From contig NZ_LT965928.1 of assembly GCF_900239935.1 (NCBI RefSeq), positions 420,945 through 484,944 on the forward strand: DNA of 64,000 bases, in the 5' to 3' direction. The DNA is from Pseudoalteromonas carrageenovora IAM 12662 (GTDB lineage Bacteria > Pseudomonadota > Gammaproteobacteria > Enterobacterales > Alteromonadaceae). The position numbers and the translations under genes were made by a program. The notes below the pieces were generated by a model, which worked only from the letters and a program-made list of their open reading frames with translations, made no database searches and was not told where the DNA came from. This document shows positions 30,970 through 54,055 of the stretch, piece after piece (the stretch's first letter is position 1; each line of letters begins with the position of its first letter).

Positions 30970-30997
30970 AAATGCCACCGCAAGGTGGCATTTTTTT
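30970..30997 (+). terminator. Terminator between the convergent gabD-like gene and the HD-GYP gene
   Basis: Perfect 10-bp stem (30970-30979 with 30984-30993), GCAA loop and seven T on the plus strand. It is far (about 190 bp) from the plus-strand stop and only a few bases beyond the minus-strand stop. The T-run favours the plus direction. The 190 bp before it (30777-30969) hold no gene I can see. Confidence 0.8.
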
Positions 30998-31001
30998 AGT
31001 T

Positions 31002-32663
31002 TTAAACTATTGGACTGTAACCAGGCAGGTTATTAAGATCTACTTCATCTAGTTGCTCTGGATTAGCAAATTCTATTATATATTTTTTATATACTTCTGA
31101 TTCTATAAAAACTGCAAAAATGTCGGCATCAAGGTGGTTATTATTAACCATTACCCCCAGTATATTTAAGCATTCGCTTACCGGTTTTGCTTTTTTATAA
31201 GGTCGATCTACGGCAGATAGCGCTTCAAAAATGTCAGTTATTGCCATAAGCCTAGCGGGAATCGACATTTGATCTTTAGTAAGGCCTCTAGGGTAACCTG
31301 TACCGTCTAGTTTTTCATGATGTCCAAGCGCATACTCTTTAACATTACTCAAATGCTTAGGAAACGGTAGGGCATCTAAAATATTCTTAGTTACATCCAT
31401 ATGACGCTTCATAATATCACGCTCACCTTGAGTTAATGTGCCTCTGCGTATGGATAGGTTTTCTACTTCATCATCATTAAGTAATGGCATTGTTTTACCA
31501 TTAATTTCTAATGTGTATTTATTAGCAATTCTTTGAATTTCGTTAAGCTCATTACCACCTAAAAATTCACCACCTACATTAATACGCTTTAATAGCGCTC
31601 TATCTAAAGATAGCTGCTTGAGTTCTGTATCAAGTAGGCGTTCTAACTGTTTTACTTCAATAGGTTTATTTTGCTTAAGCGCAGAGATAATTTCTTGCTG
31701 GTAAGAAATGTTTAAATCTCGCTTAATAACTTCAAACTTTGCATCTATATATTTTATACGATCAAATATAGTTTCAAGCTTTGTCGATTTTTCCATAATG
31801 TGATCAGGTGTAGCGATTTTACCACAGTCGTGAAGCCAACCAGCTACATCAAGTTCATGCCTATCGGCCTCAGACATAGTAAATGATGCCAAAGGCCCTT
31901 TATTGCTATCGTGTACAGCATCGGCAAGCATTAAAGTGAGCGCTGGTACCCTTTTACAATGGCCGCCAGTGTGTGGTGATTTTTCATCAATTGCCATTGC
32001 AATTGTTTCTGCAAAGGTGGTGAATAACTCTTCCATGCCTTTAATAAGCGTAGAGTTAGTTAATGAAATTGCACCTAATGATGCAAAAGATCGCGTGAGT
32101 GTGACAAGCTCTTCGCTAAAGGGAATAATTTCGTCGTTTTCACCTTTAACGTTTATAAGCTGTATAACACCGATAATATCATCAACATGATCTTTTAAAG
32201 GGATCGTTAACATAGACTTAGTGCGATAGCCTGTTAGCGAATCCATATTACGAGCTGCGCTCATATCAAAAGGAAGCGCAGCATAAACATCAGGAATATT
32301 TATATACTTACCTGAGTTGACAGCATGCGCTACGATTGCAGTTTCGTTTTCTTTACCGTTTATAAAAAGGTCTATATTAGGAAAATCGATCGGGCTATCT
32401 TCATCGCCTCTTAGGTGCAAGCCTAGTGTTTTGTTAATTACCGTTTCAAACTTAAGCTGTTTATTGTCAGTTATAGAGTAAATGCTGCCAGCATCAGCGT
32501 TAGCAACAGACATCAGTACTTGCAAAATTTCGTTAAGTAATTTACTTGAATCTTTCTCTGTCGTTAACCTAATGCTTATATCAACTAGGTGGCGCAGATT
32601 TGTTTTATCTTTTATGTGTTGTGGCATATTTATATTACTTTGTTTGATGTCTGAAGGCGCCAT
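31002..32663 (-). CDS. GAF-HD-GYP cyclic-di-GMP phosphodiesterase with an inserted segment
   Basis: 553 residues. An N-terminal GAF domain (about 25-195; ADAGSIYSI, KSMLTIPLKDHVDDIIGVIQLIN) is followed by an HD-GYP domain with HTGGHCKRV, the HD pair in GWLHDCGKIATPDHIMEKS, GHHEKLDGTGYPRGL and ARLMAITDIFEALSAVDRPYKKA. HD-GYP enzymes cleave c-di-GMP to pGpG or GMP. About 110 residues, charged and helical, lie between the HD motif and the helix GERDIMKRHMDV, where most family members have only about ten. The GAF domain could bind a cyclic nucleotide. The ATG has AAAGG upstream and lies 29 bp inside the cyclase gene, so the two are coupled. Last gene of the operon. Confidence 0.88.
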   Translation of the reverse strand: MAPSDIKQSNINMPQHIKDKTNLRHLVDISIRLTTEKDSSKLLNEILQVLMSVANADAGSIYSITDNKQLKFETVINKTLGLHLRGDEDSPIDFPNIDLFINGKENETAIVAHAVNSGKYINIPDVYAALPFDMSAARNMDSLTGYRTKSMLTIPLKDHVDDIIGVIQLINVKGENDEIIPFSEELVTLTRSFASLGAISLTNSTLIKGMEELFTTFAETIAMAIDEKSPHTGGHCKRVPALTLMLADAVHDSNKGPLASFTMSEADRHELDVAGWLHDCGKIATPDHIMEKSTKLETIFDRIKYIDAKFEVIKRDLNISYQQEIISALKQNKPIEVKQLERLLDTELKQLSLDRALLKRINVGGEFLGGNELNEIQRIANKYTLEINGKTMPLLNDDEVENLSIRRGTLTQGERDIMKRHMDVTKNILDALPFPKHLSNVKEYALGHHEKLDGTGYPRGLTKDQMSIPARLMAITDIFEALSAVDRPYKKAKPVSECLNILGVMVNNNHLDADIFAVFIESEVYKKYIIEFANPEQLDEVDLNNLPGYSPIV

Positions 32664-34857
32664 TCCAGTCCTTTGATAATGTTTTCAAATTGGTTTCGTT
32701 AATTCGCTTAATAAAAATGGTGTAAATATGAGAACTAAATACTGATGTGCTCTCAAGCTCAGTAAGTAGTGAAAGTGATTGCTGCCAATTTTTATTATAA
32801 TAATGTGTCATAGCCACTTCAGACTTACTTAGCTCGGCTAGTTGGGTGGTATTTAAACTATCTGTAAAGTCGATAGGCTCAAATAACTCTGTAGCTGTGG
32901 TTTTTCCTACAACTTGCACTTTATCAATTAATCTAAAGGAAATATGTGGGCACGCTCTCATTGTTTCTTTAGTAACCAGAATAGCTACCTCATAAAACTT
33001 GGTCAAGCTTTCTACTCGCGAACCTAAATTTACAGCATCACCTAACACAGTATAAGCTTTACGGTATTTAGACCCCATATCTCCAACATTCATATCTGCG
33101 GTATTTAAACCAATGCCAATGTTTATGGCGGGGAGATTTTTTTCTAAAAATGTTTGGTTAATTGAGCTTAAGCCTTTTAGCATTGCCATAGCCGCTTCTA
33201 CGCCATGCTTTGCATGGTCATCGTCTTGTAGGGGGGCATTCCAAAAAGCCATTATCATATCGCCAACATACTTATCTATTGTGCCACTGTGTTTAAAAAT
33301 AATTTCGGTCGTCGCCGATAGATATTCATTTAAGTATTCACTTAATTGGTGAGCAGACATGTTTTCAGATAATGAGGTAAAACCACGAATATCTGCAAAT
33401 AATACAGTCATGTTTCTTTTAACACTTTGCTGAGGAAGATCGCTAGATTGGTTAATAAGCTGATTAATATGATCTGGAGGAACGTATTGATCAAACATAG
33501 ACTTTATTTTACGGCTGTGTTTCATTTCTGCTATTGAACCGACAAAAATATAGTAGCCAGATAAAAGTGTGATCAGTAAAAGAGGCATAAACAGTGGCAA
33601 ACTAATTTTCTCTATTGCCCAAAAGTAAAAGTTAAACAAGATGGCTAGAACTGCTATGCCTAATGTAACGACCACTATGTGTCTTGCGCTCTTTTGGTAA
33701 CTTAAAATAGTTAATAGACCACCTATAACTACGATCATAAATAACGTTGCGCCAGATGACCAACTAGGCTGTGCGGGAAGCAGCTCAGGATGAATTAGCC
33801 CTCGAAATATATTGGCATGCACTTCAACCCCAGGATACTGCAACCCTACAGGCGTAGCCCTTAAATCAGCTAAGCCAATGGCTGATGTACCAATGAAAAC
33901 AACTGAGCCCTCCAGCTCACTTTCCCCAATCTTATTTTTTAGGATATCGGTTGCTGAATAATACGTAAAACTACCTGCCGGGCCTTTGTATGGAATAAGT
34001 ATTTTTCCGTATTCATCAGTTTGAATCCATTGATCATTGAACTTAATACCATCAAATAATGTAATGTTATTTAAAATATGAGATCGCGTCTGTATTTTAT
34101 CAGCAAGCGTATAAAGCCTGGCTGCTTCAAGAGCTAAAGAGGGGTAAAGTGTATTACCTACTTTGTGCACAAGGGATGCTTTTCGAATAAAACCATCATT
34201 CTCACTATGTGCATTAATAAAGCCATTGCCAGAGGCTTTGTTTTGTAAAGTTGGTATATTAACAGCGGCGCCTGAGAACTCGATAAACTGTGAGTTGTTT
34301 TGATCATCAAGCATCCAATCAACACTACTGCTAGGTAGTGGGTTAATTTGCTGATGAGTCTCATTATTTAACAAAAAACCGAGTACGGTGTCGTTATTGG
34401 ACAGTACATTGGCAAACTTGGAATCAGCATCAATTTTTTTCTTAACCTCGTTAATTGTTAATTTGTTGCTGTTTATAAAGTTAGGGAACTCAGACTCTAT
34501 TTGGCTAACAGGGTTTATTTCAGGTTCAGAAAAAAATATATCAAAAGCAATAACTATAACGCCTGCTTCAGTTAGTTTACTAACTAGCTCGGCCATTTTT
34601 GAGCGGCTCCAAGGAAAGCGACCTTGCTCTGCCATGCTTTTATCATCTATATCAATAATAACCACCGATTCATCAAATTGCTGCGGGGTGGCTGGGAGAG
34701 TTAAAACTAATCTTGAGTCGTAAAGTATGCCTTCTACTCTATTTAGTAATTGAGCAATAGCTCCAGTAGAAAAAAGCTCAATAGCAGCAACTAAAAGCGT
34801 AATGGTTACGCCAATAAAAAAATGTCTATAAATTTTTGGAATAAGAGAGCTATTAAT
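32635..34857 (-). CDS. CHASE2-domain class III adenylate cyclase; proposed ATT start
   Basis: About 740 residues. An N-terminal membrane segment (FFIGVTITLLVAAIEL) and an extracytoplasmic CHASE2 sensor (LYDSRL...VVIIDIDDKSMAEQGRFPWSR to TPVGLQYPGVEVHANI) are followed by three membrane helices (about 355-450) and a class III cyclase domain. The metal Asp residues are in LFADIRGF and YVGDMIMAFW, the adenine Lys in GTIDKYVGD, the adenine Asp and transition-state Asn/Arg in VLGDAVNLGSR, so the product should be cAMP. The first usual start, GTG 34665, would remove the membrane anchor and the start of CHASE2. The open frame runs upstream to a stop at 34870 with no ATG, GTG or TTG. ATT 34857 has AAGGA nine bases upstream, inside the preceding gene's end. 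Confidence 0.85.
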   Translation of the reverse strand: MNSSLIPKIYRHFFIGVTITLLVAAIELFSTGAIAQLLNRVEGILYDSRLVLTLPATPQQFDESVVIIDIDDKSMAEQGRFPWSRSKMAELVSKLTEAGVIVIAFDIFFSEPEINPVSQIESEFPNFINSNKLTINEVKKKIDADSKFANVLSNNDTVLGFLLNNETHQQINPLPSSSVDWMLDDQNNSQFIEFSGAAVNIPTLQNKASGNGFINAHSENDGFIRKASLVHKVGNTLYPSLALEAARLYTLADKIQTRSHILNNITLFDGIKFNDQWIQTDEYGKILIPYKGPAGSFTYYSATDILKNKIGESELEGSVVFIGTSAIGLADLRATPVGLQYPGVEVHANIFRGLIHPELLPAQPSWSSGATLFMIVVIGGLLTILSYQKSARHIVVVTLGIAVLAILFNFYFWAIEKISLPLFMPLLLITLLSGYYIFVGSIAEMKHSRKIKSMFDQYVPPDHINQLINQSSDLPQQSVKRNMTVLFADIRGFTSLSENMSAHQLSEYLNEYLSATTEIIFKHSGTIDKYVGDMIMAFWNAPLQDDDHAKHGVEAAMAMLKGLSSINQTFLEKNLPAINIGIGLNTADMNVGDMGSKYRKAYTVLGDAVNLGSRVESLTKFYEVAILVTKETMRACPHISFRLIDKVQVVGKTTATELFEPIDFTDSLNTTQLAELSKSEVAMTHYYNKNWQQSLSLLTELESTSVFSSHIYTIFIKRINETNLKTLSKDWNGAFRHQTK

Positions 34858-34862
34858 TGGTG

Positions 34863-35708
34863 CTAATCCTTAACTGGGGCAAATTTGAAAACTCGACCTT
34901 CACGAGCGCACTCGATTGATAAGCTCTTATAGTTAGCTTGTAAGTACTGTTCTATTTCTAATAATTCGGTATCAGAACGCGCGGGATCGTGACTAATTAC
35001 AGCTATATTTTTAACGTCAGCTTTTACTGCAAGTTCAGCAACTTGGTTTATTGTGCTGTGCCCCCAACCATGCTTTATTGGCATGTCATCGTTAGTAAAC
35101 TGGGCATCATGTATTAATAAGTCAGCACCTTTTATAAACTGTGCCCACTCATTAACACTTGTTTTAACTTGCCCTGGTGGGTTGAGTTCATTATCGGTAA
35201 CGTAAGCTATTTTTACTCCATTTGCATTTACGCAATATGCAGTGCCGCCGCCAGGGTGGTTTAGTGGTGCTGTGGTTACAAAAAAATCGTTAACTGTGAA
35301 GCTTTTTTGTGAAGAGCGCTGTGTATTCAGCGTAATATTTGCAGGCAAATCTTGATGCTTAACTGGAAAGTAAGAACCTTCCATTTGTTTTAAAATTGCA
35401 TTTTTACTAGCTGCGTCGTCAACATCACCTACTGTAATAGTAATTTTACGATCCGCTTGATAAATAGGCTTAAAAAAGGGAAAGCCTTGAATGTGATCCC
35501 AATGATTGTGTGTTAGTAGAATATTTATAGGGTTTGTATTTTTTAATAAACGCTCACCTAGCTCTACTATGCCGGTACCTGAGTCTAAAACTAAACTTTG
35601 CCCATTACTTTGCTCTACATACACACAAGAAGTATTTCCACCAAACATATGTGTTTTTTTGCCGGGCGAGGGCATAGACCCTCTAACTCCAAAAAATTCA
35701 ACTCTCAT
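34863..35708 (-). CDS. Metallo-beta-lactamase-fold hydrolase (candidate cyclic-nucleotide phosphodiesterase)
   Basis: 281 residues. The MBL metal site is ILLTHNHWDHIQGFPFF (HxHxDH), with further ligands in LNHPGG, IHDAQFTNDDM and VISHDPARSD, and HGWGHSTINQVAEL. The N-terminal MRVEFFGVRGSMPSPG and GGNTSCVYVE mark a subgroup often annotated as beta-lactamase superfamily I hydrolases or class II cAMP-phosphodiesterase-like. That activity is only a suggestion here, drawn from the cyclase gene right after it. There is no signal peptide, so it acts in the cytosol. Two bases separate it from the giant lipoprotein gene, and the Shine-Dalgarno of the next gene is inside its last codons. Confidence 0.82.
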   Translation of the reverse strand: MRVEFFGVRGSMPSPGKKTHMFGGNTSCVYVEQSNGQSLVLDSGTGIVELGERLLKNTNPINILLTHNHWDHIQGFPFFKPIYQADRKITITVGDVDDAASKNAILKQMEGSYFPVKHQDLPANITLNTQRSSQKSFTVNDFFVTTAPLNHPGGGTAYCVNANGVKIAYVTDNELNPPGQVKTSVNEWAQFIKGADLLIHDAQFTNDDMPIKHGWGHSTINQVAELAVKADVKNIAVISHDPARSDTELLEIEQYLQANYKSLSIECAREGRVFKFAPVKD

Positions 35709-35710
35709 AT

Positions 35711-38700
35711 TTAAGGCTTAACTCCATCTGCGTAGAAATCAAACTTAGACACACTTACATCGTTAGATGTGCCGTCAAAACACGTACTGCTAAGCACAAC
35801 TTGAGCATCAGTTTGTAAAAGCATAGATGTAAATTGATGGGTGCTATCACATTGTTCAGCTTGATAATAACCAAGGGCATTTGGGCCAAATAAAGTGTCT
35901 AGTGTGCCGTCAGCTAAAATACGTGCAATCATGCCTTTTGATTCACTCATACCAGATAGAACTATATTGCCTGAAGTATCTAACGCTGCGTCGGTAACTT
36001 TAGTATTAAAGCTTGGTGCTAATTGGTATTGGCCCACACCACTCGCGGCAAAGCTTGAATCTTCGTTACCCTCAGGAGTTAATTTTATAATAACTGCTTG
36101 ATTAGGCGTTGTGCCTTCGTTTGCAATTAAGTAAAGGTTTCCTGCGCTATCGGCCAATACTTTTGTAGTGCTATCAGTTATATCTGCAGTGATACGGGTG
36201 TCAGTATAAGTAAATATTTCATTAGCATCATCGTCTATTTTTAGCATTATTAATTGTGAATCACTCCCTGATACTTGTTTGCCCGCTATAAATATTTCTT
36301 TATTTATATCTATATAGAGTGTTTCAAAAAACTCATCTATATTGCCGTAATAAGCCCCGCTTGTGCCAAAGCTATTCTCTAATGTGCCATTACTTTTTAA
36401 CATGGTCGCAAATGAGCGGGTAACACTTGATGCATTAGTCGAAGTGCCCACAGCAACAATATAGCCACCGCTATCTATAGCTACATCAACAAAGTTTATA
36501 TCGGTATTTAAAATATCTACCGTAGTATAAATCCCCTCTGTAGCAAAGCTGTCATCTAAGTAACCATCTTGGTCTACTTTTGCTATAAAGCCTTCTTCAG
36601 TTAAACCATTTATTTGCGTACCAGCAATGATGATACTGCCATCACTAAGCTCTTTTAATGTAACGGCTTTAAACGCCACATTTATGTTGAGTGCTTTAAT
36701 TCCATCAATGCTAAAGCTTGTATCAATAATTCCAGCGCTCGTATAACGGGTTAAAACCAGCTTATTAGTAGTATTAAATTGTGCAACAGAGGCACTTAAA
36801 TATTTATTAGCTTGAGCACCACTTTTGAGTTGCAGCATGTTCATTGATAAATCATCTGAACTCACAGTCAAATTATTCAAGCTCGTATAGCCATTTGTTG
36901 AAAAGTTAGTAAACAGGCTTGCATTACTGGTTACTGAAGTTATAAAAGGTTCATTAGTCGAGTCGTTAAATTTACCAGAGAGCCATACGCTATCATTTTC
37001 ATCAATAGTAATAGCGTTAGCTGATTGATTGCTAATTACGTTTGAAATTATATTAATGCCCGAAGCACCATAACTCGTATCAAGCTCTCCGTTACTCACT
37101 GATACGCGCGCAGTAAACAACTGCTCTTTTTGAGCTGTATCACTGCCATCAACTCCTGTAGTGCCCGAAAGAATTATTTGATTACTCATAGAAGCATATT
37201 TTACGCCGGTAATTATTGCACCGCCGTCACCTTTACCTGAGTTTCCATCGATATCATATATAGTAATTTCTTCGTCAATATCATCATCGTCAATATCGCC
37301 CGATCGGTTGAACGAAATCATAGCGGCTTCTTTTTCACCTGATGAACGAGTAATATAACCCCCTAAATAAGCAGTGAAATTAACTGCGTCTATGCCGCCA
37401 ATAGCAAGTAGCTCATCGTCACCTTCTTCATCAGATAAGTCTAATATAAGCGCATCGCCAGAGTTAAAACTTCCGCTATTGTTGCCATCAGGAATAAGGT
37501 ATCTAATTGTTGCATCTAAATCGTTTTCCTCCCCTATTACGCTACCTACAACCAAAAGTTCAGAGTTACCAAAGTTTCTAATAGCATGCGACACGTCATC
37601 ACGGTTATTACCGCTTACATCAACAATACCAGGGCTGCCCGCTTCAAAAGCGAGGGTTGATACATCGTATTTAAGAAATAAACTGTCTTTATCTAGGCCG
37701 TTTACTGAATAGCCTACGCCTTGCACTTTGTTATCTGTGAATTCAAGGTCGTGTATTACAGATTCACTCGCAAGCGTTGTACATTTAGTACCTGAGTTGC
37801 CGTCACCTGAATTTGTACTAACAATACCTGTCGCACTCATTTTTAATAGACACGCTTCGGTTTCCGTTCCATTAAAGCTTGTGTAGCCAATAAATAGCTC
37901 ACCATTACCAGAGATGATAGCAGTGCCTTTTTCATCTTCACCTAGGTCAATGGTTTTAAAACCGGTGCCATTAAATGCAGTGTTTACATCGCCGGTATTT
38001 GTGTAAGAGGCAACAATAATATCTGCGTCTTCATTGTTATTGTAACCAACAAAAAAAAGGTTGGTATTAAGCTCAATGCTGTCGTTAAATTCACCATCAG
38101 AAAAAACACGAGAAAGGTCTATTTGTCCACTAAGAGGGCGTCCAAATGTATCATCTTTCACTGGAATTAGCGGATCGACGTCATCAGTAACATTTACAGT
38201 AACAGTGATTGTTGTAGTTTCATTTGGCGAACCATCATCTGTAATATCAATATTTACAGAGTGTTGTGTAGCGGTTTCATAATTGAAAGGGCGTGTACCA
38301 TTTACGCTTAATAAGCCACTGGTGCTGTTTATATTAAATAGCCCTGTTTCACCACCACTTAAGCTAAAACTAAGAGTGTTATTTTCAATGTCGGACGCAG
38401 CAATAGTACCAATTGTTTCATCGTCAATTGCATTTTCTCCAATTGAAAATGTTTGGTTTATCGCAATGGGTGCATCATTCACAGGCGTTACTGTGATAGT
38501 CAATATGCCTGCTGCTGACTCTGTACCATCAGTGATAGTGTAATTAATTATAGCTTGGCCGTTAAAGTTTGCCTCTGGAGTATAAGCTAAGTTACTACCC
38601 GCGACAGACACTGAGCCTGTATTTGCAGCTGCGGTACTAATAGATAATGAATCATTGTCTTCATCGGTATCGTTACTTAATACGTTAACATTTGTTGTTA

Positions 38701-41700
38701 CGGAATCTTCTATAATGGTTGCAGTATCAGGGTTAGCAACGGGTACATCGTTCACAGGAGTTACAGTGATAGTTAATATGCCTGCTGCTGACTCTGCCCC
38801 ATCGGTGATAGTGTAATTAACGATGACTTGACCGTTGTAGTTTGCATCTGGAGTGTAAGCGATATTATTTCCCACAACAGACACCGAGCCTGTATTTGCA
38901 GTTGCGGCACTAATTGATAAAGCATCATTGTCTTCATTGGTATCATTGCTCAAAACGTTTATATTGGTCGTAGAGGCATCTTCTAAAATGGTTGCAGTAT
39001 CAGGATTAGCAACGGGTGCATCGTTCACAGGCGTTACAGTGATAGTTAATATGCCTGCAGCTGACTCTGTCCCATCGGTGATAGTGTAATTAACGATGGC
39101 TTGACCGTTGAAGTTTGCATCTGGAGTGTAGGCTAAGTTGCTACCGGCGACAGTTACCGATCCCGACGTTGTACTTGCTGAGCTAATAGAAAGCGTATCA
39201 TTGTCTATATCTGTATCATTGCTCAAAACGTTTATATTAGTCGTAGAGGCATCTTCTAAAATGGTTGCAGTATCAGGATTAGCAACGGGTGCGTCATTAA
39301 CGGGTGTAATTGTAACTGTTAATGTGCCAGTAGTACTCGCTATGCCATCTGTTAAACTATAAGTAATTGTTGCGGTGCCATCTTCATCAGCGCTAGGCGT
39401 ATATTGAATTAGGTTGTTTAGGATTGCTGCATTACCAATATCACTCACAACTGAGCTAATATTTAAGCTGTCACCATCTATATCTGTATCGTTGCTTAGC
39501 ACATTTATTAGCGTTCCCTGGGCATCTTCAGCAATTGTAATACTATCTGGATTGGCCACTGGTGCATCGTTAGTTGGGGATATAGTTATTTGTAAATTGG
39601 CACTCGCACTAGCTCCGTTACCATCTGATATTGTATAAGAAACAATTGCTACTCCGTTACTGTTAGGCGTTGGCGTATATTCTATTTTATTCTCAACAAT
39701 AGAAGCCATGCCTAGTTCAGTAACAACACGTGTAATTGTTAAGTTATCATCATCTACATCGCTATCGTTAGCGAGTACATCAATTAATATAGGTGATGCA
39801 TCTTCTATCATTGAGGCGCTATCTGAAGTGGCTATAGGCGCGTCATTTATAGGTATAATTGTAAGCCTTACAGTTGCAGTACTTGATTGCGGCGCATCAT
39901 CTGCAATGCCATCAGAAATTGTATAGCTTATAATGACTTCACCAAAGAAATTAGGCTCGGGTGTATATTCAATACTATTATTTACAATCTGCGCTGTGCC
40001 AACAGTATTTGTAATGTTTATAAGTGTGATTGTATCGCCATTAGCATCAGTATCATTCTCTAACACATTTAATATTATGCTAGGGCTGTCTTCAGCTAAC
40101 GTATACTGATCATCATTAGCTTTTGCTGGAGAGTTTGAGCCTGTTTTAGTGAGTACCACTTGTGCGGTGGCTGCTAAGCCTTGCTCATTAGTAACTGAAT
40201 AAGTAAAACTATCTACATCCAATGCATCTAAATTTGGCTCATAAGTAAATGAGCCATCATTACTCAGCGTTAGCGTACCACTTTGCACATTTACAACTGG
40301 GGTCGTGTTAATAGTTAGTCCGCCAGACTCTATATTTACATCATTTTTCAGTAAGCCATTTTCAGCTGTAATACTGAGAGTTTGATTATATTGAAATTGA
40401 TACTCGTCATTCTGCGCAATCGGGTTATCTGGCGTGCTATTAATTGTAAGTGTTGCTGTTGCCGTTGCCGTGGCGCCTAATGTATCAATTACTTGGTATT
40501 GAAATTCATCAATTCCATAATAATTAGGATCAGGGATGTATGAAAAACTCCCATCTGTGGCTAAAAATAATTGGCCATGAGCGGGTGAAACTAAATAAGT
40601 ATCATCAATAATAAAGGTGTCGTTATTAGGATCCGTATCGTTCGCTAGTAACCCTAGCGCAGCCTCAACAACAAGTGTGTTGTCTTCATTAACACTATAG
40701 CTATCGTTAGACGCAGATGGCGGACTATTTTGATCTAAAGGATTGATTGTTACATCTGCAACTGCCTGAGCACCTTGAGCATCAAAAATACGGTATTGAA
40801 AACTATCAGTGCCTTGCATGTTGGCGCTTCCTGTATATTCAAAGCTACCATCTGTATTGAGTGTTAAGTTACCTTTAAGAGGAGAGGTTACAGGTGTTGT
40901 ATCAACGGTAAGTGTATCAAGATCGATGTCGCTATCATTGGCTAATAAACCAGGAGCTGTGACAAATAAAGTACCGTCGGCGTTTATGTTATAGGTATTA
41001 TCTAGTGCACTTGGTACATCATTTACAGCATTTATAGTTATTTCTACAATACCTGTATCTGTCATACCAAGCTCGTTAATTACAAGGTAACTAAAAGCAT
41101 CAATACCATTAAAATTAGCGCGTGGAGTGTAAGTAAATTCGCCGCTTGAATTTATTATAACACTGCCATGTTGTGGGCTGACTAATGCAGTAGTATTTAC
41201 TGTAAGATCGCCTTGGTATTCATCTGCATCATTAGTTAATGCATTATTTAGCAGCGCTTGGTCTTCATTAACTTCAAATTGATCGTTAAATGCTTTTGGA
41301 GCAAAGTTCAAGGTACCACCTAAAGGAGCGATATTTATTACTTCAGCAAAGCCACTTTCGCCACTTCCATCAATTCCGGTGATTAAAATTTGATAGCTTT
41401 TATCAGTTAAAGTATCGCTAATACTAAATGTTGTTCCAGATAAACCTAAAAATTGTTGGCCGTTTTCTAAATCATTTATATTGGTTGTTGTAACGCCGGC
41501 TTCAGTCGCTAAGTAGATGTTATAACGGTTTAAGTTTTCATTTGCCTGCCATGAGAGGTTAATACTTTGTTCATCTCGCTGTGCAGTAGTACCTTCAATT
41601 TTATAAGGTTGCCAACTTACAGTAATAGCATCGGCCAGTACTTGGTTATTAAGGTTATCAGTGATCCATATTTCTAGGCGTAAATCACCTGCATCAATGC

Positions 41701-42145
41701 CATAAAAATAAGGACTAAGTCCTATTACTGATTGCTCAAAATTAGTACCACACTCTTGCGTACATATAGGCAAGCTTTTATTAACGCTTGGAAGCACTAA
41801 ATTTACTGCGTTTATACCATCAGGGTCCGATACGCCAAGTAAAAAGGTAATATTACCCTGTATTACTTCATTTATTTGAGAAAGGGTAATAGTAGCCTGA
41901 GAATTAGCTACGTTTGAACCTACAACACCTCTATTTGTAGAAACAGCACCAGAAACCAGCACTTTAGTTGTGATAGTTTCACCAGTAACACCCGTTAGGT
42001 TAATTGTGTTAGTTGAGGGGGTCGGGGACTCTTGACCCTCAGGTGTTGGTACAGATTCTTGTTGAGCTGCCTCTTCAGAGGAGCCGCCACAAGCACTTAG
42101 CAAAAAAACCATTAAACCGAGCAAAAAAGGGTTTTTTGCTGTCAT
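35711..42145 (-). CDS. Giant outer-membrane/surface lipoprotein with Ig/cadherin-like tandem repeats and delta-60-like propeller repeats
   Basis: 2144 residues. Lipoprotein signal with lipobox LLSAC (Cys19) followed by Gly-Gly, so sorting to the outer membrane is expected. Next come a Pro/Ser/Thr linker, a FnIII-like domain (about 180-275, INLSWQANENLNRYNIYL), about ten Ig/cadherin-like repeats of roughly 90-95 residues (VNDAPVANPD...NVLSNDTD), one cadherin-like repeat (INQTFSIGENAIDDETIGTI) and about 750 residues with delta-60-like units (LDTSYGASGINII, IDTSFSIDGIKAL, LDDSFATEGIYTT, LENSFGTSGAYYG). Such repeats make long Ca-binding stalks and beta-propellers. Three units are near-identical in DNA (273-bp period). 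It is likely the surface-exposed, adhesin-like partner of the operon. Ligand unknown. Confidence 0.87.
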   Translation of the reverse strand: MTAKNPFLLGLMVFLLSACGGSSEEAAQQESVPTPEGQESPTPSTNTINLTGVTGETITTKVLVSGAVSTNRGVVGSNVANSQATITLSQINEVIQGNITFLLGVSDPDGINAVNLVLPSVNKSLPICTQECGTNFEQSVIGLSPYFYGIDAGDLRLEIWITDNLNNQVLADAITVSWQPYKIEGTTAQRDEQSINLSWQANENLNRYNIYLATEAGVTTTNINDLENGQQFLGLSGTTFSISDTLTDKSYQILITGIDGSGESGFAEVINIAPLGGTLNFAPKAFNDQFEVNEDQALLNNALTNDADEYQGDLTVNTTALVSPQHGSVIINSSGEFTYTPRANFNGIDAFSYLVINELGMTDTGIVEITINAVNDVPSALDNTYNINADGTLFVTAPGLLANDSDIDLDTLTVDTTPVTSPLKGNLTLNTDGSFEYTGSANMQGTDSFQYRIFDAQGAQAVADVTINPLDQNSPPSASNDSYSVNEDNTLVVEAALGLLANDTDPNNDTFIIDDTYLVSPAHGQLFLATDGSFSYIPDPNYYGIDEFQYQVIDTLGATATATATLTINSTPDNPIAQNDEYQFQYNQTLSITAENGLLKNDVNIESGGLTINTTPVVNVQSGTLTLSNDGSFTYEPNLDALDVDSFTYSVTNEQGLAATAQVVLTKTGSNSPAKANDDQYTLAEDSPSIILNVLENDTDANGDTITLINITNTVGTAQIVNNSIEYTPEPNFFGEVIISYTISDGIADDAPQSSTATVRLTIIPINDAPIATSDSASMIEDASPILIDVLANDSDVDDDNLTITRVVTELGMASIVENKIEYTPTPNSNGVAIVSYTISDGNGASASANLQITISPTNDAPVANPDSITIAEDAQGTLINVLSNDTDIDGDSLNISSVVSDIGNAAILNNLIQYTPSADEDGTATITYSLTDGIASTTGTLTVTITPVNDAPVANPDTATILEDASTTNINVLSNDTDIDNDTLSISSASTTSGSVTVAGSNLAYTPDANFNGQAIVNYTITDGTESAAGILTITVTPVNDAPVANPDTATILEDASTTNINVLSNDTNEDNDALSISAATANTGSVSVVGNNIAYTPDANYNGQVIVNYTITDGAESAAGILTITVTPVNDVPVANPDTATIIEDSVTTNVNVLSNDTDEDNDSLSISTAAANTGSVSVAGSNLAYTPEANFNGQAIINYTITDGTESAAGILTITVTPVNDAPIAINQTFSIGENAIDDETIGTIAASDIENNTLSFSLSGGETGLFNINSTSGLLSVNGTRPFNYETATQHSVNIDITDDGSPNETTTITVTVNVTDDVDPLIPVKDDTFGRPLSGQIDLSRVFSDGEFNDSIELNTNLFFVGYNNNEDADIIVASYTNTGDVNTAFNGTGFKTIDLGEDEKGTAIISGNGELFIGYTSFNGTETEACLLKMSATGIVSTNSGDGNSGTKCTTLASESVIHDLEFTDNKVQGVGYSVNGLDKDSLFLKYDVSTLAFEAGSPGIVDVSGNNRDDVSHAIRNFGNSELLVVGSVIGEENDLDATIRYLIPDGNNSGSFNSGDALILDLSDEEGDDELLAIGGIDAVNFTAYLGGYITRSSGEKEAAMISFNRSGDIDDDDIDEEITIYDIDGNSGKGDGGAIITGVKYASMSNQIILSGTTGVDGSDTAQKEQLFTARVSVSNGELDTSYGASGINIISNVISNQSANAITIDENDSVWLSGKFNDSTNEPFITSVTSNASLFTNFSTNGYTSLNNLTVSSDDLSMNMLQLKSGAQANKYLSASVAQFNTTNKLVLTRYTSAGIIDTSFSIDGIKALNINVAFKAVTLKELSDGSIIIAGTQINGLTEEGFIAKVDQDGYLDDSFATEGIYTTVDILNTDINFVDVAIDSGGYIVAVGTSTNASSVTRSFATMLKSNGTLENSFGTSGAYYGNIDEFFETLYIDINKEIFIAGKQVSGSDSQLIMLKIDDDANEIFTYTDTRITADITDSTTKVLADSAGNLYLIANEGTTPNQAVIIKLTPEGNEDSSFAASGVGQYQLAPSFNTKVTDAALDTSGNIVLSGMSESKGMIARILADGTLDTLFGPNALGYYQAEQCDSTHQFTSMLLQTDAQVVLSSTCFDGTSNDVSVSKFDFYADGVKP
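38481..39299 (-). repeat. Three tandem 273-bp repeat units inside the giant lipoprotein gene
   Basis: The segments 38481-38753, 38754-39026 and 39027-39299 have exactly the same length (91 codons) and each starts with the same ACAGG(C/A)GTTAC(T/A)GTGATAG(T) pattern. The encoded domains differ at only a few residues. Flanking repeats have diverged. This is a substrate for recombination that adds or removes whole domains. Confidence 0.85.
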
Positions 42146-42183
42146 TCTACGTACTCCAATAAAAAGCTTTATATTCTATTCTG

Positions 42184-43308
42184 TTAAGGCTCTAATCTAA
42201 AAGAACCTGAGGAATTTACTGCGGGGTTACTTATTTCATTAAGGTTAAAATCACCAGTGATAGTATCTATATCATTTAAAAAAATAGCATCAATGTCACC
42301 CACTGCTTTATTGTTATTATGTGAGGCAAAAGTAACGGCCAAATCTAATTTGGTTAAATCAATAAAGCCACTATAAGCAGCGTACCAATTTCCGCCAGCA
42401 TCATTAAAACTTACTTCTCCGTCAGGAACAGTACCGTTGTCAAAATCGACTGACATAGACATAGAAAAATCACTTACTTCACCTAAACTTGATGAAACGT
42501 CAAAACTAGTTGCTTGATAGTTAAAAATACCTTGTCGCTGAGCTATTTGATCAATTAAAGCAGCATTACTAACCGCTTGAAACTGCTGCTCTGCGTATAC
42601 ATCTGCAAGTAAAGTATCGGCATCTTCATTATTTTCTGAAGCGCTATTTTCTGCTATTTGATCCTGTTCAGCTTCTGATTCATCATTACTGTTAATAGAG
42701 GCTATACTTTGAGTAAAAATAGCGGGTGCTTGAGTGGTCTTAATTACATCCCCTACAGAAGTTACTTGTGCAAAAGAAAACGCCTCATTACTACCAAGTG
42801 ATAAAATACTGTTGTCTTGTAAAGTAAGGTCGATAGCGCCATCCCATACTGCAACATACATATCACCATCTACTAGCTGTAGTTCAAAGTGTGTACCACG
42901 TATACCAATAGAGCCTACTGGCGTTTTTACATTATAAGAACCACCGTTCTTTTTTATAACACCCGAAATAGAACGTAACCCCCCTTTAATTAACTCTATT
43001 GACGCAGAGCCTTTTTGCGTACCCGCATCAAATTCATAGTTGGCAATATTTAGTACTGAATTTTCTTTTAATGCAATTAAGCCCCCATCAGACATCGAAA
43101 ACTGAGCCTTACTCTTTTCACCAGTCGTTATTTTGTCTACACCATATACAGTGTCGCGGCGCTTTAAGGATCTTTGCTGCTCGGAGGTCGCATCGGTTGC
43201 TACTACAGCACCTCTAGCCAAAATAGTTTTGCCAGCAGCTGTGGTATTAGCTTGCGAGTAGAAACTCACACAAAGTAAGGTGGTTAATACTGGGGTTAAA
43301 TGTTTCAT
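42184..43308 (-). CDS. Periplasmic FecR-domain protein
   Basis: 374 residues with an N-terminal signal peptide (MKHLTPVLTTLLCVSFYSQA) and a FecR domain at about 25-170 (KAQFSMSDGGLIALKENSVLNI, VKTPVGSIGIRGTHFELQL, VWDGAIDL). The rest has an acidic low-complexity linker (about 205-230) and a beta-rich C-terminal domain (about 255-374). Classic FecR is a membrane anti-sigma regulator, but this one has no transmembrane helix after the signal peptide and no sigma gene nearby. Stand-alone secreted FecR proteins occur beside CHASE2 cyclases in other bacteria, where a sensing or scaffold role is assumed. It follows the barrel gene by 12 bp. Confidence 0.85.
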   Translation of the reverse strand: MKHLTPVLTTLLCVSFYSQANTTAAGKTILARGAVVATDATSEQQRSLKRRDTVYGVDKITTGEKSKAQFSMSDGGLIALKENSVLNIANYEFDAGTQKGSASIELIKGGLRSISGVIKKNGGSYNVKTPVGSIGIRGTHFELQLVDGDMYVAVWDGAIDLTLQDNSILSLGSNEAFSFAQVTSVGDVIKTTQAPAIFTQSIASINSNDESEAEQDQIAENSASENNEDADTLLADVYAEQQFQAVSNAALIDQIAQRQGIFNYQATSFDVSSSLGEVSDFSMSMSVDFDNGTVPDGEVSFNDAGGNWYAAYSGFIDLTKLDLAVTFASHNNNKAVGDIDAIFLNDIDTITGDFNLNEISNPAVNSSGSFRLEP

Positions 43309-43320
43309 AATTACCTTAAA

Positions 43321-44646
43321 TTAAAATGAGTAACTAGCGCTTAAATTTGTATCAAAGCGGTCGTATTCAAACAGCGAAATATCACTTGTTTTATCTTGAT
43401 AGTTTAATGCTAACTGCAGCGCTAAGCTTTTATTAATTAGGTACCGTAATGAGCTTGAAAGTATTAATAAGTTATCATCGCGATTTTGCATAAATAATGG
43501 GTGCTCATCTTGATATTCAATCCACTGATAGCCAGTTTGAGCTGATAATTGCCACTGCTGAGCAAGTAATGCGGTTACCTGGTAGTAAATCCCATTAATA
43601 TTTCTCGCATTAAAGTCACCACTCTCAATACTAGCAATTTCGCTTTTATGACTCGCGCTAACACTCTGAAGCCACCTACTAGACATGTAACTAGCGCCAA
43701 TATTGAGCGCATAAAAAGAGTTGTCTAACTTTTCATCAAACGAATTGTTCATATCACCCAGAGTTAATGCACCAAACAGGCTCAGCTGTTTATCTATTTG
43801 GTAGCTAGCTCCGCCAGTTAATGTTGTTTCAGTTCTGTATAGATCGCCGTCTAATAATAAAGGGGTAACACCGGCCTGCACATACCAGCGAGTATTGTTT
43901 AGCTGGTACTGATAGCGAGCAGATAAATGAGTATTTATACGATCGTATTGTGATAGCTCATTAAATTTATACCAGTCAGTATTTATACCTATAGATAATG
44001 AACTTTGTTGATCAATCGGATGTGAGTAACGCCCTTTGTAATTTAGCTTTACATAGTTGTCGTCGGTACTTTTACTGTCAGAAGAAAGTAAAAACTCACC
44101 TAAATTAGGAATTAAAATAGTATCTTCTGATGTACCCGCATTAACGTTATCATCAACACCATAAGCAAGCTCAATACTTTGGTTAAACGAGCGTGCAGTA
44201 GTGCGTTGTTTACGTTGAGATATATCTAATAAAGTTTGCGCAGCCGTTTTCACTCTATCTGATGAAGTATTAGTATTTATTATAACTAGGGCTTGAGAAT
44301 TCGCTGCCGGTAAATTATTTGCCGCAATATACGATTTAATTAAATATAAACGTGCCTCATACCATTGAGGTTTGTCTTCAACGACTCTTTCAAATGCAAA
44401 TACAGCGGGGGCTGATTCACCTGAATTGAGAGCTGAAATTCCCAACAAATAATCGAAATCAGGTTCACCTAAATATTTATAATTTTTTTGGCTGCTTTTA
44501 TATGCTTCTGCATACTGTTTATTGGAAATTAAATGCTGTAATTCACCTAGTAATTTTACATAAGAAACGTTGTCTTCAGCTTTAGCGTTTAAACTATGTA
44601 AAGCAAGGTAACTAAGTAATATACTAAAAATAAGGTGCTTGATCAT
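43321..44646 (-). CDS. TPR-containing outer-membrane beta-barrel protein
   Basis: 441 residues: signal peptide (about 1-23, ending LNAKA), a helical TPR-like region (about 25-150; AYKSSQKNYKYLGEPDFDYLLGISALNSGES and AVFAFERVVEDKPQWYEARLYLIKSYI), then alternating beta strands to a terminal Phe (NLSASYSF), the signature of outer-membrane barrels. The layout resembles Slam-type surface lipoprotein assembly modulators (TPR plus 14-strand barrel), though I cannot confirm homology. First gene of the six-gene operon that includes the giant lipoprotein, so a role in placing that protein on the surface is a natural but unproven idea. Confidence 0.78.
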   Translation of the reverse strand: MIKHLIFSILLSYLALHSLNAKAEDNVSYVKLLGELQHLISNKQYAEAYKSSQKNYKYLGEPDFDYLLGISALNSGESAPAVFAFERVVEDKPQWYEARLYLIKSYIAANNLPAANSQALVIINTNTSSDRVKTAAQTLLDISQRKQRTTARSFNQSIELAYGVDDNVNAGTSEDTILIPNLGEFLLSSDSKSTDDNYVKLNYKGRYSHPIDQQSSLSIGINTDWYKFNELSQYDRINTHLSARYQYQLNNTRWYVQAGVTPLLLDGDLYRTETTLTGGASYQIDKQLSLFGALTLGDMNNSFDEKLDNSFYALNIGASYMSSRWLQSVSASHKSEIASIESGDFNARNINGIYYQVTALLAQQWQLSAQTGYQWIEYQDEHPLFMQNRDDNLLILSSSLRYLINKSLALQLALNYQDKTSDISLFEYDRFDTNLSASYSF

Positions 44647-44870: not shown

Positions 44871-44947
44871 TGGGGCGATTGACGGGGCTTGAACCCGCGA
44901 CAACCGGAATCACAATCCGGGGCTCTACCAACTGAGCTACAACCGCC
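44871..44947 (-). tRNA. tRNA-His (GTG)
   Basis: 77-nt cloverleaf on the minus strand with encoded CCA (plus-strand TGG at 44871-44873). The acceptor stem is GCGGTTG/CAATCGC with one G-T pair. The extra G-1 opposite C73, unique to tRNA-His, is present. The D arm has GCTCAGTTGGTAGAGC, the anticodon stem-loop CCGGA-TTGTGAT-TCCGG carries anticodon GTG, and the T arm is GCGGGTTCAAGCCCCGT. An isolated single tRNA gene. Confidence 0.97.
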
Positions 44948-46903: not shown

Positions 46904-46968
46904 ATTTGTGCAAATTTAATGTATTATAGCCACCAATTTTGGTTGTAGACCTAGGGATATACCTACTC

Positions 46969-49644
46969 GTGAAAGTTTTTACACAATTTATTAGTGCTTT
47001 TATTCTACTTTGTAGTTTTAGTACGCTGGCTTTTACGCCAACAGCGTCACAAATTGAGCAATTTAAAAAATTGCCTAAATCTCAGCAGGAAGCCCTAGCA
47101 AAGCAGTACGGTGTGGATATTTCTACAATTACCGGTGCAAATCAGTCAAATGAAGAAAATGATAAAGAAGAAAAATCAACTATAGGTGAACGTCCTGAAA
47201 AGGAAGAAGAAGATTTAACGGACGAAGAACGCTTTAAGCCAAAAACAGATGAATTAAAACCATACGGTTATGAGTTATTTGCAGGCGAACCTGCGACCTT
47301 TATGCCAAATGAAAATGCGGCAGTACCTGATACCTATATAGTAGGTGCAGGCGATCAATTAAAAATAAATTTTTACGGTAAAGAAAGTGACAGTTTTAAT
47401 GTAACTGTTGACCGTGAAGGGCGTATAAATATTCCAGATTTAAGCCCTGTAGAAGTTGCAGGTTTGACCTTTGCCGAAATCAAAGAATTAATTAAAGTTA
47501 AAGTTGAACAAGAAGTCATAGGCGTAAAAGCTTTTGTATCGCTTGGTCAACTTCGTAGCATGCGTATTTTAGTACTTGGTGAAGCTTATAAGCCAGGAAG
47601 TTATAGCGTATCGTCTTTAACGACTGTATCTCATGCTTTATTTGTAAGCGGTGGTGTGTCAGATATTGCTTCTCTTCGTAATATACAGGTTAAACGTGCA
47701 GGTAAAGTTATTACTAACTTCGACCTTTATGACTTACTGATCAAAGGTGATAGCAGTAACGATATAGTTTTAAAATCTGGCGATGTTGTTTTCGTACCTC
47801 CTGTAGGAGCTCAAGTTAGAGTTGAAGGCTTAGTTAAGCGCCCCGCAATATTTGAGCTAAAAAAAGGCGAGACTGCAAAGCAATTATTAACTATGGCGGG
47901 AGGCCTTAAACCTGGCGCTTACGCTAAAAATGCAGTAGTAGAGCGCTTTAATTTTGACCGTAAAGAAGTGCTATCTGTCGATTTTTCAAAATCTCAAATA
48001 AACTACATTCCTCAAGATGGCGACCGAATTCGTTTTAACTCTATTAGTGCACAATATCAAAATTCAATTAGCCTAATTGGCGCTGTAGCGCGCCCGGGTA
48101 ACTATCAGTGGTATCAAGGTAAACGTATTTCTGATGTTTTAAAATCAGTTCGAGGCGACTTATTGCCACAAGCGGATTTAAGCTATGGCTTAGTGATTCG
48201 CGAAATAAATATTAATGGTGATATAGAAGCGCACCAATTTGATGTAGCTCAAGCGATAATAAAGAATCCAGAAAATAACTTAACGTTAAAAGCGAATGAT
48301 AAAATAATCGTATTTAGCCGCTTTGAAGAAAAAGAAGCTGAAAAATCGGCACTTGCTAATATGGCTTTAAGCCAAGAACAGCAAGAGCAACAGTTAAAGG
48401 CTGAACAATGGCATACATACCAGCAAAAAGAATTTGAAAAATACATTGGTATAAATCAAGAAGAGGAGTTTATTTTTGAAGAAAATAAAGCTCTTACACT
48501 CGCTGAAATGTCAAAACGCAAAGCTAAAGAAGAAGCTGAGCTTGAATTAAAACCAGAAGACTACGCTTTATTCAGCCGCCACAATTTACTGGCCCCACTT
48601 ATTGCAAAATTTAAGCAACAGGCTTCTGTTAATCAGGCTATTCAGCTTGTAGAAATTAACGGCAACGTTACATTCCCTGGTGTGTATCCGTTAATGATAG
48701 GCGGTGAAGTGCGTGATTTAGTAACAGCTGCTGGCGGGTTGTTAGAGTCTGCTTACGTAAAACAAGCAGAAATCACTCGAATTGTTGAAAACGATGGCTC
48801 CAAGATAGAGCATTTACGTTTAGATTTAGAAAGCGCGATGCGCGGCGACCTACAAAGTAATATCACTCTACAAAGCAAAGACAGCATTAACGTGTTTGCT
48901 ATCCCAAACTGGCAAGAAAACGTAAAAGTAGAATTAAAAGGTGAGCTTAAATTCCCTGGTGTATACACAATCCGTCGCGGCGAAACACTAACGGAGCTAT
49001 TAGAGCGCGCAGGTGGCTTCTCTGAGTTTGCAGAGCAAAAAGCGGCAGTATTTACTCGCGCCTCTATAAAAGAGCAAGAACAAGAGCAACTAGCCCGATT
49101 ATCAACCGAGTTACGTCGTGATATCGCATCAAAAAGTTTTCAAAATTCAGTAAGCAGTAATTCACTTTCATATGATGAAATGAATAAGCTGTTAAATGAT
49201 TTAGCAAGTGTGGAAGCTGTAGGGCGCTTAGTTATCGACTTACCACTTATTGTCGAGAATAAGCAAAACTTAGTCCTTCAAGACGGTGATATTTTATATG
49301 TACCAAGCAAGCGTGATTCAATTAGCGTAATCGGTGAAGTTAATTATTCGACCTCCCATTTATATAAATCAGGGGTTACACTTGAAGATTATATTGACCT
49401 AAGTGGTGGCCTAAAAGATCGTGCAGATGAAGACAGTATTTATATAATTAAAGCTAATGGCTCAGTTAAAATTCCTGCTAAAGGAGGGTGGTTTGCCGCA
49501 AATGATCCTACAGAGTTAGAAGCTGGCGATACAATCGTAATCCCAATGGACGCGAGTCATATGGATAAGCTTACCCTGTGGAGTACCGCAACCCAAATAG
49601 TGTACCAATTAGGTGTCGCTGTCGCTGCAATTACCAATATTTAA
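46969..49644 (+). CDS. Large SLBB-domain polysaccharide export protein (Wza-like)
   Basis: 891 residues from GTG 46969 (MKVFTQFISAFILLCSFSTLAF, a signal peptide); an earlier in-frame TTG at 46939 would put ten residues before it. After an acidic linker (about 50-95) comes a Poly_export domain (about 110-180; YIVGAGDQLKINFYGKES, VTVDREGRINIPDLSPVEVAG) and then several SLBB beta-grasp repeats (MRILVLGEAYKPGSYSV, VRVEGLVKRPAIFELKKGE, ISLIGAVARPGNYQWYQGK, VEINGNVTFPGVYPLMIGGE, VELKGELKFPGVYTIRRGE, ISVIGEVNYSTSHLYKSG). A charged coiled coil lies near 465-540. There is no lipobox Cys. It is likely an outer-membrane or periplasmic export channel for the polymer, first gene of the cluster. Confidence 0.9.
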   Translation: MKVFTQFISAFILLCSFSTLAFTPTASQIEQFKKLPKSQQEALAKQYGVDISTITGANQSNEENDKEEKSTIGERPEKEEEDLTDEERFKPKTDELKPYGYELFAGEPATFMPNENAAVPDTYIVGAGDQLKINFYGKESDSFNVTVDREGRINIPDLSPVEVAGLTFAEIKELIKVKVEQEVIGVKAFVSLGQLRSMRILVLGEAYKPGSYSVSSLTTVSHALFVSGGVSDIASLRNIQVKRAGKVITNFDLYDLLIKGDSSNDIVLKSGDVVFVPPVGAQVRVEGLVKRPAIFELKKGETAKQLLTMAGGLKPGAYAKNAVVERFNFDRKEVLSVDFSKSQINYIPQDGDRIRFNSISAQYQNSISLIGAVARPGNYQWYQGKRISDVLKSVRGDLLPQADLSYGLVIREININGDIEAHQFDVAQAIIKNPENNLTLKANDKIIVFSRFEEKEAEKSALANMALSQEQQEQQLKAEQWHTYQQKEFEKYIGINQEEEFIFEENKALTLAEMSKRKAKEEAELELKPEDYALFSRHNLLAPLIAKFKQQASVNQAIQLVEINGNVTFPGVYPLMIGGEVRDLVTAAGGLLESAYVKQAEITRIVENDGSKIEHLRLDLESAMRGDLQSNITLQSKDSINVFAIPNWQENVKVELKGELKFPGVYTIRRGETLTELLERAGGFSEFAEQKAAVFTRASIKEQEQEQLARLSTELRRDIASKSFQNSVSSNSLSYDEMNKLLNDLASVEAVGRLVIDLPLIVENKQNLVLQDGDILYVPSKRDSISVIGEVNYSTSHLYKSGVTLEDYIDLSGGLKDRADEDSIYIIKANGSVKIPAKGGWFAANDPTELEAGDTIVIPMDASHMDKLTLWSTATQIVYQLGVAVAAITNI

Positions 49645-49735
49645 AGTATAAACTTGCTCTATTGAGTAAATTAAGTATGCGAACAGTAATTATTGCTTTA
49701 ATAATTAGATTAGAAAGTGGAACTAGATCAACTAT

Positions 49736-50695: not shown

Positions 50696-50928
50696 AATAC
50701 GTTTACTTCTACACATCAGATAATAAATGCAACTAATTAACTAACTACTTTGAGAGCTGAAGTAATACAGTTTTAATCGGATAAAATTTTTATATCAATT
50801 GAATTAAATTACTGTACTTCATTGCAAAGAGTAAAAGACTTTTGCATGTATGACGCGAATTAAGACTACTTAATTCACAAAGATTAGTATCAGCTCAGTA
50901 AAAGTGATAATTACTACATAGGATTAAT
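50696..50928. other. AT-rich intergenic region before rmlB
   Basis: 233 bp without an open frame, terminator or recognisable operator; no JUMPstart or ops element found. Possibly an internal promoter. Confidence 0.3.
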
Positions 50929-51996: not shown

Positions 51997-52010
51997 AAAG
52001 GAGCTATGTA

Positions 52011-52886: not shown

Positions 52887-52962
52887 TCTATTTAGAATAT
52901 TTAATATGCTGAAGATTCATAAATGTGAGCCTTTAGTTTCAGGTGATATGAAGTAGGATTTT

Positions 52963-54054: not shown

Positions 54055-54055
54055 C

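Follow-up and report, generated by a model that had tools for sequence, protein, structure and literature searches.

Gene content and layout of the locus

The window analysed here is a stretch of 64,000 nucleotides from Pseudoalteromonas carrageenovora IAM 12662 (contig NZ_LT965928.1), whose genome spans 4.58 Mb in 3 contigs and is estimated to be 100% complete. Within the window, positions 44646-31002 are occupied by six open reading frames (ORFs), all on the minus strand, which encode in order a TPR-barrel outer-membrane protein, a FecR protein, a giant lipoprotein, an MBL-fold hydrolase, a CHASE2 adenylate cyclase and a GAF-HD-GYP protein. Their domains were confirmed by Pfam and NCBIfam searches, and together the genes probably form one sensing system, which may link the outer membrane to the production of cyclic AMP (cAMP). 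The features, in window positions, are as follows.

43321..44646, minus strand: TPR-barrel outer-membrane protein, 441 amino acids, similar to Slam proteins of the type 11 secretion system (T11SS); TPR helices followed by 14 predicted strands; SlipAM match
42184..43308, minus strand: secreted FecR protein, 374 amino acids; FecR domain at residues 58-159 and C-terminal 8-stranded barrel at residues ~251-374
42187..42558, minus strand: segment of the FecR gene for the cargo-type barrel, residues 251-374
35711..42145, minus strand: giant lipoprotein, 2144 amino acids; lipobox LSAC, about 10 cadherin-like/tandem-95 repeats and a delta-60 (beta-propeller-type) C-terminal region
34863..35708, minus strand: MBL-fold hydrolase (PF12706), 281 amino acids, candidate atypical class-II cyclic-nucleotide phosphodiesterase
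32635..34857, minus strand: CHASE2 class III adenylate cyclase, 740 amino acids from an ATT start
34855..34857, minus strand: putative start codon for the cyclase, a rare AUU, preceded at a distance of 9 nt by AAGGA, which overlaps the MBL gene end
31002..32663, minus strand: GAF-HD-GYP cyclic di-GMP (c-di-GMP) phosphodiesterase, 553 amino acids, catalytic motifs intact
30970..30993, no strand assigned: hairpin 3' of the last gene, with a good T-run (terminator) on the plus strand and a weak T-run on the minus strand
44871..44946, minus strand: tRNA-His, just upstream of the block and on the same strand; a boundary, outside the system

Gaps of 12, 38 and 2 bp separate the first four genes, and the cyclase and GAF-HD-GYP genes overlap by 29 bp. 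The initial annotation had described six minus-strand genes with very short gaps or overlaps and with parts in every layer of the envelope; the layout is confirmed, provided that the cyclase starts at the ATT at 34857-34855 to give the gap of about 5 bp after the MBL gene, and the envelope-spanning set of parts is likewise supported. A consensus terminator scan found no minus-strand terminator-like site within any gap between the six genes, and one weak site just within the cyclase gene (34812-34796). The promoter scan returned 43 sites against a mean of 52.6 in shuffled sequences and is uninformative on internal promoters.

Conservation and co-inheritance

Relatives were collected by their cyclase (E<=1e-60) from a genus set of 108 genomes and a family set of 147. 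The cyclase is present in 45 of the former (46 places) and 43 of the latter (48 places, two of which, in G000 and G285, are shared with the genus set), and all 92 distinct places were read and scored with profiles built from a set holding 43 of those 92. Among the 46 genus loci the TPR-barrel and FecR genes are each found in 43, the lipoprotein in 45, the MBL hydrolase in 39 and HD-GYP in 40, with all six in the same order and strand in 37. The three genus loci without TPR-barrel and FecR (L122, L128, L194) all lie at contig ends. The nearest named locus found is that of Pseudoalteromonas sp. MMG007, with a cyclase 88% identical.

In the 46 family loci, TPR-barrel and FecR stand upstream on the same strand in 31; the lipoprotein is found in 35 loci, MBL in 27 and HD-GYP in 28 (23 of them on the same strand), and the complete set in 15/46. 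Such synteny is far above chance. Fifteen family loci are not counted as core. Five of them (L147, L198, L200-L202) end inside a lipoprotein gene in the stretch read and cannot be judged, L217 carries its TPR-barrel gene downstream, eight (L140, L142, L153, L154, L214, L216, L218, L219) have no TPR-barrel in the stretch read, and the last, L197, is considered below.

Presence of the parts follows the cyclase genome by genome. FecR (E<=1e-15) matched in 43/45 cyclase-bearing genus genomes vs 0/63 others, and MBL (E<=1e-40) in 44/45 vs 1/63, although the relatedness of these genomes means that Fisher p-values for co-occurrence overstate independence. Of the two genomes in which FecR was missed, G239 yields a FecR ORF in the profile search (L196) and G244 is a truncated contig. 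In five genomes (G209, G239, G266, G298, G299) the MBL match lies apart from the cyclase, yet still co-occurs with it. The six-gene block is thus conserved in Pseudoalteromonas and its family, as order and co-inheritance both bear out the single conserved unit of the initial annotation, and since the parts tend to be inherited together in related bacteria they probably constitute one sensing system.

The TPR-barrel protein and the FecR barrel

The TPR-barrel protein resembles Slam channels of type 11 secretion. Against the Pfam profile SlipAM (DUF560) it scores 25 bits as a protein (cut-off 22), and it is the only SlipAM match in the whole genome (20.8 bits, or 26.7 with its neighbours in frame). 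The predicted model (pLDDT 84) consists of N-terminal helices of TPR type followed by 14 strands. Across 33 members of this protein family, at E 0.1, TPR_19 is matched in 27, SlipAM in 14 and TPR_Slam in 10. No solved Slam structure is among the 50 listed matches in either structural search, which is evidence neither way, and so the assignment rests on the Pfam profiles and the strand count. A sequence search of the PDB with the TPR-barrel profile gave 131 matches, the best 60 of which align to the TPR part only.

The proposed partner of this channel-like protein is the FecR protein, which has two recognisable parts. Its FecR domain lies after a signal-peptide-like N-terminus (by eye) and structurally matches the signalling domain of PupR; the protein is without the N-terminal cytoplasmic anti-sigma part, and no sigma factor is present among the six genes. 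At the C-terminus, the predicted model holds an 8-stranded barrel of TbpB/fHbp type, here termed the handle, for which 46 of the 50 structural matches listed belong to the Slam-cargo type of surface or haemophore protein (NHBA, fHbp, TbpB, hemophilin). Both the cargo-type barrel and the Slam-like character of its neighbour had escaped the initial annotation. A Pfam search of the FecR C-terminus returned noise only. DUF7354 matched 16/35 FecR family members (best 1.6e-4), and the FecR profile found two PDB sequences (best E 0.11). Solved Slam cargo proteins are described as sharing no sequence similarity (PMC5449769).

The handle tracks the TPR-barrel across loci. A scan of 128 loci with separate profiles for FecR domain, handle and TPR-barrel yielded 103 FecR ORFs: 86 combine a handle with a TPR-barrel in the same locus, 7 have a TPR-barrel and no detected handle, and 10 have neither. 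A handle-bearing FecR ORF in a locus without TPR-barrel was not seen (0/103). Beyond the genus and family sets the association holds as well: of 36 such loci 19 have FecR, with a handle in 10/13 that have a TPR-barrel vs 0/6 without (p=0.003, an optimistic value, some of these loci being relatives, such as L230 and L231 of one genus). Shorter FecR proteins also occur near CHASE2 cyclases, in frames of 158-308 amino acids, which suggests a minimal contact made by FecR and CHASE2, with the handle accompanying the channel.

Several further arrangements were encountered. L226 encodes FecR proteins with three and four handle barrels, and L010:282-4790 a FecR protein of 1502 amino acids with one detected handle, adjoining FecR and TPR-barrel genes. 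The small contig of L008 has an ORF consisting of a handle only, and no TPR-barrel or FecR in the stretch read. A search of viral contigs with the FecR profile gave 17 distant FecR loci, which were not used.

The adenylate cyclase and its start codon

The catalytic domain of the cyclase is well supported (PF00211, 73.3 bits vs a cut-off of 21.9), while its start is unusual. The first ATG, GTG or TTG of the frame is the GTG at 34665, chosen by the mechanical ORF call, a start that would cost the protein its first membrane segment; upstream of it the frame stays open as far as 34869. When the window is aligned with 14 close relatives, one position of this extension is ATT in 14/15 and ATA in L128, and it is preceded by a Shine-Dalgarno-like stretch (AAGGA/AGGAG). 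Of the 31 invariant isoleucine columns, just this one and one other are ATT in all 14. Alternative starts are available in L116 (in-frame GTG) and in L126 and L127 (TTG), within three codons. Rare AUU starts are found in Escherichia coli infC and pcnB. A rare AUU start is likely for the cyclase in this clade; it would explain the gap of about 5 bp noted in the initial annotation, and gene callers would truncate the protein.

This enzyme may be central to cAMP supply. Searches for adenylate cyclases, covering classes I and III only, found no class I enzyme in this genome and no class III catalytic domain other than that of the CHASE2 cyclase; class I is present in 1/108 genus genomes. It was also observed that 63/108 Pseudoalteromonas genomes are without the CHASE2 cyclase at E 1e-60. 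Six cNMP-binding places occur in the P. carrageenovora genome, one of which fits a simple phosphate-cassette pattern, and no receptor is claimed.

The MBL hydrolase, the output position and the giant lipoprotein

The MBL hydrolase is a candidate cAMP phosphodiesterase by its motif and Pfam family. Its THNHWDH fits [T/S]HXHXDH, the motif of Rv1339-type cAMP phosphodiesterases (PMC9293780), with H67, H69, D71 and H72 invariant in 22/22, though its X residues N and W are not all small or hydrophobic as described for that type (PMC9293780). It aligns nearly full-length with the NF041851 equivalog at 38.9 bits (cut-off 400) and is hence not assigned to that equivalog; two RNase Z models score higher (68.5 and 64 bits), also under their cut-offs. 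In L154 and at L239:10929-11693, distant and different MBL proteins adjoining CHASE2 cyclases pass the class-II phosphodiesterase cut-off.

The last position of the block is more variable. In the GAF-HD-GYP protein the residues H278 D279, H448 H449 E450 and D453 G454 G456 Y457 P458 (HD and HHExxDGxGYP) are invariant in 24/24. NKFDE is the motif of cyclic-nucleotide GAF domains, and the GAF domain was considered as a cAMP sensor and rejected, this motif not being conserved (by eye). The HD-GYP gene itself is absent or replaced in some loci, and the step from GAF to c-di-GMP proposed in the initial annotation is not directly supported. In L105, L144 and L198 its place is taken by an MscS-type channel; the channels of L105 and L007 (Alcaligenaceae, directly after the cyclase) combine cNMP-binding and MS-channel domains in Pfam, and a related channel gene lies 2 kb downstream at L013:14366-15880, beside FecR. 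L153 has, after a handle-less FecR and a CHASE2 cyclase, an ORF for a 1353-amino-acid repeat protein with N-terminal CxxCH, possibly haem-binding.

The giant lipoprotein is probably an adhesin or ligand binder at the surface. Its open frames in relatives range from 751 to 3866 amino acids, some cut or split, and in the window its gene contains three 273-bp tandem repeats with 84% matches (38463-39292). L214 has another match to the lipoprotein profile on the opposite strand. The protein is an accessory part: in L149, L203, L207 and L209 the TPR-barrel, FecR, MBL and cyclase genes are kept and no lipoprotein was detected. Load or ligand on this protein had been put forward as the sensed input, but in view of these four loci a role as constant sensor is not supported. 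In several more distant loci TPR-barrel and FecR are divergent from the cyclase.

Beyond the block, a plus-strand gene run (46939-63119) begins with an ORF of 901 amino acids of polysaccharide-export type (SLBB-type, by eye). This run adjoining the operon is a possible exopolysaccharide cluster.

Proposed mechanism and alternatives

The state of the outer membrane may be relayed to the CHASE2 cyclase, and so control cAMP, by a Slam-like channel together with a FecR protein that bears a cargo-type domain. This proposal builds on gene content, conservation, co-inheritance, predicted folds and the pairing of handle with TPR-barrel, and is held with as much doubt as confidence. In this scheme the TPR-barrel protein would be a Slam-like outer-membrane protein, with the FecR protein and its Slam-cargo-type barrel as partner. 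Docking of the handle in the TPR-barrel, or its passage through, would determine where the FecR domain lies or how far it is exposed, and this domain would touch the periplasmic CHASE2 domain of the inner-membrane cyclase. This contact would relieve or impose CHASE2 inhibition, changing cAMP, and the MBL hydrolase would probably degrade cAMP and reset the signal. The last gene would act as a variable output, here a GAF-HD-GYP protein that would lower c-di-GMP in parallel, its place being filled in certain other loci by a channel that has a cyclic-nucleotide-binding domain, while the giant lipoprotein would be an accessory surface part. A stronger version, considered possible but doubtful, makes the secretion channel itself the sensor: its occupancy would be reported via the FecR handle, so that cyclase activity depends on export or surface contact, and the cyclase may be the main or only source of cAMP.

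A number of observations weigh against the relay. At E 0.1, 19/33 TPR-barrel family members are without a SlipAM match; the score in the window is modest, with the Phage_OMP, BBP2_2 and DUF2860 barrel families scoring alike, and the top structural matches are BcsC in Foldseek and CymA/OmpG in VIA. The FecR model was built on six sequences, its FecR domain has a middling pLDDT, and the Slam-cargo profiles of Pfam match none of 35 FecR family members at E 0.1. No handle was detected in seven of the FecR ORFs that share a locus with a TPR-barrel, three of them being qualified cases (L136 gives a very weak match, L217 is cut by the edge of the stretch, and in L237 a handle appears once filters are switched off, i-E 6e-4). 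In L197 lipoprotein, MBL and cyclase are present, and the 2.2 kb read upstream contains neither FecR nor TPR-barrel. The CHASE2 cyclases of L140, L142 and L219 have none of the five other genes with them in the stretch read, and in 16 core loci the cyclase has no adjacent MBL. Furthermore, a fully exported FecR protein could not touch CHASE2.

Alternatively, the TPR-barrel protein could simply be a receptor or channel at the surface, the role proposed for NsrA of Sinorhizobium meliloti, with FecR a purely periplasmic relay like FecR/PupR and no export. The match of the FecR domain to PupR, the shorter FecR proteins near CHASE2 cyclases with no TPR-barrel in the stretch read, and the requirement of the NsrA outer-membrane barrel for CyaK signalling (PMC7529298) all suit this explanation; it leaves the cargo-type barrel that tracks the TPR-barrel, and the Slam-like profile, unexplained, and is regarded as unlikely though a genuine contender. 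It is rather improbable that the TPR-barrel protein is a dedicated exporter of the giant lipoprotein, which FecR and cyclase merely monitor. The lipoprotein gene does lie between FecR and cyclase in most loci and is found in 45/46 genus loci, Slam channels export lipoproteins (PMC5449769), and L197 keeps the lipoprotein without FecR, though also without TPR-barrel. However, the four loci without detected lipoprotein retain TPR-barrel and FecR, the two are likewise paired in L009 and L110 with no lipoprotein match, and the handle profile matched FecR ORFs and no lipoprotein ORF.

BcsC as top Foldseek match, together with a c-di-GMP enzyme in the operon and the plus-strand run of polysaccharide type nearby (by eye), might point to an exopolysaccharide-export channel (BcsC, PelB) and a cluster regulating polysaccharide secretion; with 14 predicted strands, CymA/OmpG leading the VIA matches and no synthase among the six genes, this is very improbable. 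That shared history alone keeps the genes adjacent, with no joint function, is scarcely credible. Some genomes lack MBL and HD-GYP or have them at another place, and the compared genomes are related, but co-occurrence is near-perfect over 108 genomes, and TPR-barrel, FecR and cyclase are grouped also in the divergent gene orders of distant loci.

Comparison with known systems

The closest described gene set is a Campylobacterota cluster of CHASE2 adenylate cyclase, cAMP phosphodiesterase, FecR outer-membrane protein and TPR protein (PMC9239204). The same four kinds of part are clustered in both, with the MBL hydrolase here as a candidate for the phosphodiesterase, and were proposed there as one pathway (PMC9239204); the clustering of CHASE2 cyclase, FecR protein and TPR protein that marks the Campylobacterota type is found here. 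Compared by description, that cluster differs in that no giant lipoprotein, HD-GYP, Slam-like barrel or FecR cargo-type barrel is mentioned in the account given (PMC9239204). The suggestion in the initial annotation that the six-part set is not a described system stands in part: a four-gene core is in print, and full-text searches of the open-licence literature with related terms did not find the six-gene set. Nor was the pairing of Slam-like protein and handle with FecR and cyclase found in open-licence full texts, an absence that is weak evidence.

The best functional precedent, by analogy, is NsrA-CyaK of S. meliloti, in which the outer-membrane protein NsrA is reported as required for signalling through CyaK (PMC7529298). 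The NsrA-CyaK and CyaD1-D2 systems share with the present locus an outer-membrane barrel needed for signalling by an inner-membrane CHASE2 cyclase, while NsrA is larger, with its barrel at residues 600-1200, and no FecR-handle, MBL or HD-GYP partner is mentioned in the descriptions of these systems (PMC7529298, PMC13001267, PMC5498481). CyaD1 without CHASE2 is described as constitutive (PMC5498481), a precedent for the proposed restraint of the cyclase by CHASE2. The link of CHASE2 and FecR to cAMP made in the initial annotation thus has precedents in Campylobacterota (PMC9239204) and in the S. meliloti outer-membrane path (PMC7529298, PMC13001267).

FecR proteins are part of other systems as well. 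The Burkholderia BiofilmReg operon similarly places a FecR protein beside a CHASE2 sensor; this sensor is a histidine kinase, accompanied by LysM-FecR and a response regulator, with no cyclase or barrel mentioned in its description (PMC5192318). The same source stated in 2016 that the ligand or recognition of CHASE2 was not known (PMC5192318). FecI-FecR-FecA/PupR surface signalling shares the FecR domain fold, whereas the present locus has no sigma factor among its six genes and no cytoplasmic anti-sigma part.

With type 11 secretion, the locus shares a TPR and 14-strand barrel protein adjoining a protein that ends in an 8-stranded barrel (PMC5449769, PMC8406197, PMC12282271). The present locus differs in the FecR domain of its cargo-type protein and in the cyclase to which the two proteins are joined; neither FecR nor cyclase occurs in the main texts of PMC8406197 and PMC12282271, and a cargo class unmentioned there would be predicted for T11SS-like proteins. 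The locus offers a concrete, testable partner set for CHASE2, in which a Slam-like channel is matched by a FecR domain with a fused barrel of Slam-cargo type. If the proposed relay is correct, it would explain how surface state could set cAMP, and perhaps c-di-GMP, in marine bacteria of a genus in which no class I cyclase was found in 107/108 genomes, and type 11 secretion would be joined to second-messenger signalling.

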